A stretch of 64,000 nucleotides of DNA from Streptantibioticus silvisoli (lineage in GTDB: Bacteria > Actinomycetota > Actinomycetes > Streptomycetales > Streptomycetaceae): positions 62,001 through 126,000 of the forward strand of contig NZ_JAAGKO020000019.1 of NCBI RefSeq assembly GCF_027947535.2. The letters are read 5' to 3'. A program made the translations under genes and the position numbers. Shown one piece after another: positions 63,140-64,000 of this stretch; the first letter of the stretch is position 1; every line of letters starts with the position of its first letter. The notes below the pieces were generated by a model. The model searched no databases, had not been told where the DNA came from, and saw only the letters and a list, made by a program, of their open reading frames with translations.

Positions 63140-63574
63140 TTCGACCGTGCGCGAGGCCGTCCGACTCGCGGTGCAGCGGGCCGGGCGGCCTTGATGGTTC
63201 GTACCGGGGCCGTTCCGCGTAGGCGGACCACAGGTGGGTTTGGATGTTCGGCGTCCTGGCCACGGCGGTGTGGTCGCGGCACTCGGAGTCGGGCTTCCCG
63301 CAGAGCGCCGGTCCCGTCGACCACGCGGGGCCGGCGCCCTCGGCTCAGCGATGAGGTGCCCCCTGCGGTCGGACGCTCCCGCCGCCAGGAACGCCGACGC
63401 ACCGGATCAGGGGCGCCGTGGCCATAACGGTGGATTCGATCCACGTAGGAACCGATCCACGTAGGAACCGGTCTACGTAAGAAGCCGGCTCCGTTGATCG
63501 TCCCCAGCGGCGCGGTTCGCTTACGCCGTGCCGGAGGCGATCCGGCGCCGTTCTCCGGGGCCGGACCGTAACGG
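63140..63574. other. 435-base gap after ychF
   Basis: CGCGAG (63150-63155) and CTCGCG (63165-63170) form a weak hairpin just after ychF. Around 63200-63420 the DNA has lower GC bias and no gene I recognise. A triple repeat lies at 63437-63484. The rest up to 63574 is featureless. Confidence 0.5.
63437..63484. repeat. Three tandem 16-base repeats
   Basis: CGATCCACGTAGGAAC at 63437-63452 and 63453-63468, then the variant CGGTCTACGTAAGAAG at 63469-63484. Each contains CTACG or CCACGTA-type cores. Confidence 0.85.
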
Positions 63575-63937
63575 TTACTTCGCGCCCAGGAGTTCGAGGA
63601 CCTTGTTGATGGCCTCGACGACCGGTACGCCGACCGTGCCGATGGTCGCGGCGACGCCGGCGACGGCCAGCAGGGCGCGGTGCCGCTCCTGCGGCTGGAC
63701 GTTCGCCTCGGCACGCAGCGCCGGCAGGGAGTCGTCGAGCGCGGTGGCGCCGGCCGGTGTCACCTGGGTGCGCAGGGCCAGGACCAGGACGAACAGTTCA
63801 CGCAGAGCCTCCTGGACGGGTTGGGGGAGCTCCGGGGCCGGGGTGACCCGCTTGTCGATGCCCGTGTTGCCCGAGCCGCCGTGCATGGTGACGTGGTCGC
63901 CGCTGCCGAAGTAGTAGTGCTGGCTCGCGTCACTCAT
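63575..63937 (-). CDS. DUF5955-like protein with N-terminal GNTG motif
   Basis: A 120-residue protein. The N-terminal 30 residues contain HYYFGSGDHVTMHGGSGNTGI, a Gly-rich motif with alternating polar and hydrophobic residues. The C-terminal 80 residues form an all-helical domain (LPQPVQEALRELFVLVLALRTQV, QERHRALLAVAGVAATIG, PVVEAINKVLELLG) that I associate with DUF5955 of Streptomyces. The function is unknown. Its ATG overlaps the stop of the upstream gene by one base (TGATG), so the two are translated together. That gene ends in the same motif. Confidence 0.75.
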   Translation of the reverse strand: MSDASQHYYFGSGDHVTMHGGSGNTGIDKRVTPAPELPQPVQEALRELFVLVLALRTQVTPAGATALDDSLPALRAEANVQPQERHRALLAVAGVAATIGTVGVPVVEAINKVLELLGAK

Positions 63938-64000
63938 CAGCTCGCCATCCCGGTGTTGCCGGTGCCGCCGTACATGTTGACGTTGTCCCCGAAGTAGTAA
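63937..64000 (-). CDS. Unknown gene, C-terminal end only (cut by window edge)
   Basis: Only the last 20 residues are in the window: YYFGDNVNMYGG, TGNTG, then MAS and stop. The piece matches the start of the DUF5955-like protein encoded next. The body of the protein lies beyond the window, so its family cannot be called. Confidence 0.6.
   Translation of the reverse strand, partial: YYFGDNVNMYGGTGNTGMAS

Follow-up and report, generated by a model that had tools for sequence, protein, structure and literature searches.

Bacterial amyloid signalling pairs (BASS) are encoded by adjacent, overlapping genes and carry a common motif in the C-terminal tail of one protein and the N-terminal head of the other (Dyrka et al. 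2020, as cited in PMC7889193 and PMC8086366). One partner in such a pair is an NLR (NB-ARC/NACHT) protein, and its counterpart has a BELL domain or a different known effector domain. The BASS3 peptide from Frankia forms amyloid-like aggregates (PMC8086366). Effectors are brought to conflict systems by the adaptor EAD1 (PMC7159879).

The pair of genes investigated here lies at one end of a window of 64,000 nucleotides from Streptantibioticus silvisoli (G000:C42:62001-126000; positions are those of the window unless a contig is named), and has the same tail-to-head arrangement of a short motif, here called the tag. The upstream gene encodes a DUF6232 membrane protein and the downstream gene a small, predicted helical protein. 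We consider it probable, at roughly 0.6, that the two genes form a self-contained two-protein signalling module with tags that would co-assemble.

The gene pair in the window

The features of the pair are listed in Table 1, together with the tags of related pairs. The preliminary description had placed a YYFG...GNTG motif at the C terminus of the gene cut by the window edge and at the N terminus of its partner, had reported a one-base overlap between the two and had suggested that the pair continued outside the window. All of this was borne out: the overlap is present, the full upstream gene was read in L004 (248 amino acids from ATG), and Smith-Waterman alignment of both window proteins gave a score of 77, compared with 33.6 ± 5.4 for shuffled sequences (maximum 58; 0 of 2000 reached 77). 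The bodies outside the motif scored 26, against 33.1 ± 5.5 when shuffled, and have no similarity; the upstream gene is therefore not a tandem paralogue of its partner, an origin that had been named earlier as one refuting outcome. Among homologous pairs the overlap took the -3 form (ATGA) at 57 loci and the 0 form at 10.

Table 1. Features of the pair in the window and tags of related pairs
Feature	Position or locus	Strand	Tag (upstream / partner)	Remark
Small partner gene, 120 aa	63575..63937	-		N-terminal tag, then predicted four-helix bundle (residues 39-117); remote DUF5955 relative
N-terminal tag of small protein	63857..63919	-	HYYFGSGDHVTMHGGSGNTGI	residues 7-27
Stop/start overlap, one base (TGATG)	63937..63937	-		upstream TGA and next ATG share base 63937
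DUF6232 gene, 3' end	63937..64000	-		runs on past the window to G000:C42:126683 = L004:2684
C-terminal tag of DUF6232 protein	63946..64000	-	HYYFGDNVNMYGGTGNTGM	residues 228-246; first codon extends two bases beyond the window
DUF6232 tail / partner head	L127, L128		HGDVFAGDKFTGRGYNVNK / GDVFSGDKFTGQGYTVNK	
DUF6232 tail / partner head	L126		ARDTFNVSGGGRATVNN / GRDTFNVRDQGNVTVNN	
DUF6232 tail / partner head	L130		HLDNRGGRLGS / TLDNRGGFLGA	
DUF6232 tail / partner head	L109		QGDVIHQYGEGSIGKAQHSGSGNIGG / GDHIQQYGSGSIGKAEHTGSGDIVAGG	
DUF6232 tail / partner head	L129		HVGDRVMQIGDGNIGKV / HFGDSIHQVGDGNIGKI	
Tag from G302	G302		GDVFAGDKFTGRGYNVNKSG	mismatched to window tags
Second upstream family / DUF5955 protein	L264		GGNVTGNVQSGAHARATY / AGSVTGNVQTGSHARAEY	

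The upstream protein was matched by PF19744 (DUF6232) with an E value of 5e-22 and 79 bits, above the curated cut-off of 27.4. It has a proline-rich N terminus and two predicted transmembrane (TM) helices, and the AF2 model places helices at residues 101-133 and 143-169 with beta strands on either side; the architecture predicted for DUF6232 is a soluble beta domain split by a two-helix membrane hairpin. The C-terminal tail (HYYFGDNVNMYGGTGNTGMAS, 63940-64000) is likely to be cytoplasmic, a prediction based on the basic residues before the first membrane helix and on a hairpin that leaves both ends of the protein on one side. Within DUF6232 the highest conservation was found in the last 24 residues (entropy 0.70 vs 1.49). 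A PH-like fold was suspected for DUF6232 and is not claimed, since comparison of the AlphaFold models with PDB folds gave no significant match and PDB sequence searches gave none.

The small protein starts MSDASQHYYFGSGDHVTMHGGSGNTGID. In its AF2 model residues 1-33 have pLDDT values below 50 and the head, which holds the tag, is unstructured, followed by helices at residues 39-56, 61-74, 82-98 and 100-117; both tags are unstructured or of low confidence in the AlphaFold monomers. The C-terminal half is Gly/Ala-rich and hydrophobic (RALLAVAGVAATIGTVGVPVVEAINKVLELLG). The label 'DUF5955-like', as first given to this protein, holds for a remote relationship and not for a direct assignment. The window protein had no Pfam match, to either PF19380 (DUF5955) or PF19955 (EAD1), and the direct label was rejected as below the cut-off, but PF19380 matched 11 of 19 homologues (best 6e-4), and profile-profile comparison with DUF5955 by hhalign (probability 85%, E value 6e-6) supports remote homology.

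Canonical stand-alone DUF5955 proteins of Streptomycetaceae carry no obvious tag and, where present, usually occur in one copy; the genome of the window encodes one without a tag at G000:C45:126898-127152 (L273). Between ychF and the small gene lies a near-perfect tandem repeat (atccacgtaggaaccg, ~2.5 copies, 63436-63482).

Distribution of the pair

Relatives of the small protein were present in 44 of 249 Streptomycetaceae genomes, and at all 30 of the loci fetched first the gene immediately upstream was a DUF6232 gene; the two genes overlapped by one or four bases and carried the motif on either side of the junction. When 84,980 species genomes were scanned, 70 loci were returned, nearly all from Streptomyces and one from Kitasatospora. 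A tag-matched DUF6232 partner was found at 68 of these 70 named Streptomyces/Kitasatospora loci, a count that includes L207, where the intact tag lies ahead of the start codon chosen by the script and just its latter portion was recovered; the motif itself was one of the two seeds of the scan, so its conservation at these loci is partly built in. Support independent of the motif-seeded scan comes from a diverse DUF6232 alignment, in which the tail holds 5 of the 12 invariant columns. When DUF6232 genes were located by Pfam profile in 61 Streptomycetaceae genomes, 10 of 10 were paired and had matched tags.

The two exceptions among the 70 loci, L203 and L212, are both damaged. In L212 (Streptomyces albipurpureus) an apparent deletion through recombination between the motif copies has left the small protein fused with the tail of DUF6232, and L203 is a broken remnant in which recombination between both copies is probable.

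Two degenerate DNA motif patterns gave 29 and 24 matches in the 249 genomes, 53 in all, and every one lay in a DUF6232 pair, while reversed control patterns gave 0 matches in the same genomes; the patterns were derived from the pairs, and what they establish is the absence elsewhere in the 249 genomes of these tag sequences, not of every variant. One pair (G001) that had been overlooked by the protein search was added by these matches. For the patterns tested, the tags are nearly confined to the pair. The question raised at the outset, of whether the motif always occurs in adjacent genes, is answered affirmatively for the two patterns by 53 of 53 matches, and a common internal repeat is ruled out.

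Across 20 long loci the neighbourhoods vary: no third gene is conserved, no NLR occurs nearby, and no effector enzyme or defence gene adjoins the pair. Many pairs occupy chromosomal sites common to several species, for example the ubiD/menaquinone region. Neither protein matched PADLOC-DB, and PHROGs gave no match. In G430 and G338 (another family; L120, L121, L139-L142), DUF6232-like genes without a recognisable tag or tagged partner were seen in the stretches read, and 2/3 DUF6232-like genes per genome were near-tandem.

Joint variation of the tags

In other actinomycetes DUF6232 pairs carry quite different tags, each matched between its two genes (Table 1; the L130 DUF6232 query was without one middle piece upstream of the domain, which leaves the domain match unaffected). 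Smith-Waterman scores for 37 pairs, sorted by eye into six tag classes, had a cognate mean of 74 compared with 31.5 between classes, and the diagonal dominated the class matrix; the exception was L025, which fitted another class better than its own. This joint change of tags, over at least six tag classes, is the strongest evidence for the pairing. Because the tags of the two genes vary together in many actinomycetes, DUF6232 and the small protein very probably find each other through them, presumably by physical binding. As a pattern, the earlier proposal of a homotypic motif linking the two proteins is well supported: a short motif of homotypic type, which the tested patterns located nowhere but in the pair and which changes jointly in its two genes, appears to couple two co-encoded proteins.

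Some DUF6232 pairs have a RHIM/BASS3-like core (QIGDGNIG / QVGDGNIG), and the class B core, Q-x-G-x-x-N-[IV], fits the RHIM/BASS3 core. In a comparison with a single BASS3 peptide among BASS1-10, which is amyloid-forming (PMC8086366), the L129 tags gave p values of about 0.001-0.002, the range with L029 included was 0.001-0.03, and the window tags had no likeness beyond chance (p 0.28 and 0.06).

A shared motif might also be left over from duplication or gene conversion involving two adjacent coding stretches and play no part in any interaction. The motif copies are ~90 bp apart and have recombined together in L212, and probably in L203, as this origin would allow; however, codon use at identical residues was 0.654 within cognate pairs and 0.656 between loci, so recent conversion is not what keeps the tags alike, and the codons vary while the residues are held. 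On this codon comparison gene conversion was judged an unlikely cause and was rejected. The bodies of the proteins are also unrelated, and in further lineages, and next to different upstream proteins, unrelated tags are again matched; we regard a mere by-product as scarcely credible.

Other partners and other upstream proteins

The DUF6232 partner in L274 (G285) and in L275 (G317) is a tagged EAD1 protein, over the PF19955 cut-off in both cases (1.3e-15 and 5.4e-12 respectively), and in L143 (G563) it is EAD1-like as judged by eye. EAD1 copies number 8 in G285 and 7 in G317; the genome of the window (G000) encodes no EAD1 proteins, and there the output must run via the DUF5955-like domain. EAD1 and the DUF5955-like domain are alike in being small, all-helical and without enzymatic features.

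This substitution bears on a toxin-antitoxin-like reading, by which DUF6232 would restrain a membrane-active helical partner through the tags. Such a unit would be in keeping with two short genes that overlap and lack a conserved third one, and with the hydrophobic, Gly/Ala-rich C-terminal half of the partner. The helical domain is nevertheless replaceable by an EAD1 adaptor, for which we know of no toxic activity, and identical matched tags are commoner in co-assembly than in neutralisation; the reading is very unlikely to be correct.

A second upstream family, unrelated to DUF6232 (~500-640 amino acids; multi-TM, judging by its hydrophobic segments; no match to a Pfam family above cut-off), is paired with tagged DUF5955 proteins in L264-L271, L278-L296, L299 and L306, with tags such as NHGVIQQGGISVVGNQAIGQGATA / NHGVQQFGGQSQVGNQAIGQHARA; the tag scores were mostly above every shuffle, the exceptions being L270 and L271. 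L297, L298, L302 and L304 do not count, being either unpaired or misread. The upstream protein in L301 is a right-handed beta-helix protein (PF13229, 7.6e-42), and a DUF5955-like protein follows it, with the tags NNYYGPVFHQAVHHAQLAWNN / NNYDGPVFHCAVSGSQFAWNN (z 15). The pair in L305 has a matched tag very similar to that of L301.

Discussion

In the signalling module that we favour, the DUF6232 tail would serve as a short Gly/Asn-rich interaction tag, predicted to be cytoplasmic, and both tags would co-assemble in register as a cross-beta stack of an amyloid, RHIM-like type. A change at the membrane may expose or cluster the DUF6232 tails, which would then template the tags of the small protein and gather the helical bundles at the membrane, where the bundles might act themselves or recruit further proteins. 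Recruitment is the likelier output, because an EAD1 adaptor takes the place of the helical domain in relatives. Signalling would run from the membrane protein to the small protein, possibly in cell death, defence or development. Co-assembly of the tags at the membrane is favoured by the BASS-type layout, the class B RHIM/BASS3 core and the likely cytoplasmic tail, and it would probably take an amyloid form. Weighing against the module are the lack of likeness between the window tags and BASS3, the poorly resolved tags in the AlphaFold monomers, the varying neighbourhoods with no NLR, effector or defence gene, the negative PADLOC result, the absence of EAD1 from G000 and the exceptions L025, L270 and L271. 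The connection with conflict or signalling systems made in the preliminary description was upheld only in relatives, by the EAD1 partners and the RHIM/BASS3-like cores, but not by an NLR: Pfam detected no NB-ARC/NACHT (NLR) domain in either window protein, and no motif match fell outside DUF6232 pairs.

The tags might instead form a defined non-amyloid interface, for example two short strands completing one sheet, which would simply anchor the small protein on a complex in the membrane and have neither polymer nor immune role; the setting might be maintenance of the cell envelope or of development in streptomycetes. The sporadic yet long-lived presence of the pair, its occurrence at sites common to species (ubiD/menaquinone region) and the lack of defence neighbours and of a PADLOC match are consistent with this, and the polymerisation of the Gly/Asn-rich tags is a prediction. 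Such a tether does not readily account for the class B core, which fits that of RHIM/BASS3, the BASS3 peptide aggregating in amyloid-like form (PMC8086366), nor for a tail and head layout that is that of amyloid signalling pairs (PMC7889193), nor for the EAD1 partners that connect relatives with conflict systems. We hold the tether to be unlikely, though a serious alternative to co-assembling tags.

Beyond the window, the chances appear even that NLR-free two-gene signalosomes form a broad and so far unrecognised class in the Actinomycetes, in which several unrelated upstream proteins (DUF6232, the multi-TM family, beta-helix proteins) each have a private C-terminal amyloid-type tag that recurs at the N terminus of a small DUF5955-like or EAD1 adaptor, and in which tag identity would wire sensor to adaptor. 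DUF6232 and DUF5955, both domains of unknown function, gain a common testable role as the two members of pairs with matching tags. With so many private tags there is a natural panel for asking how parallel signalling lines are kept apart by short motifs, and tag pairs would extend bacterial prion-like signalling past NLRs, to proteins of the membrane and proteins built of repeats. The open-access literature searched contained no paper that names DUF6232 or DUF5955, and the pairing therefore appears undescribed there; some tags may have had earlier mention elsewhere.

Among the known systems, the EACC1-caspase 'System 4' (PMC7159879) was considered and did not fit. It is likewise a membrane-associated two-gene unit in actinobacteria, but its EACC1 is a single-TM domain with a caspase; neither window protein matches it and no peptidase is encoded. 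The EAD1 found behind the tag in G285, G317 and, by sequence, G563 brings the pairs close to the EAD adaptors of Kaur et al. (2020; PMC7159879); however, EADs are described as self-pairing, whereas here the short tag would be the pairing element, and the window partner has no EAD match. In contrast to BASS there is no NLR: the C-terminal tag is carried by DUF6232 membrane proteins, by the multi-TM family and by a beta-helix protein, whereas the bearers of the N-terminal tag are small and helical, either DUF5955-like or EAD1. The window tag differs from BASS3 in having one extra Gly and no Q, while the class B tags of L129 and L029 have the same core as this RHIM-like motif, Q-x-G-D-G-N-[IV]. 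Both have a short shared motif, C-terminal in one protein and N-terminal in its neighbour, and both have neighbouring or overlapping genes, filamentous actinobacterial hosts and several motif families unrelated in sequence. On these points the pair resembles BASS without an NLR.
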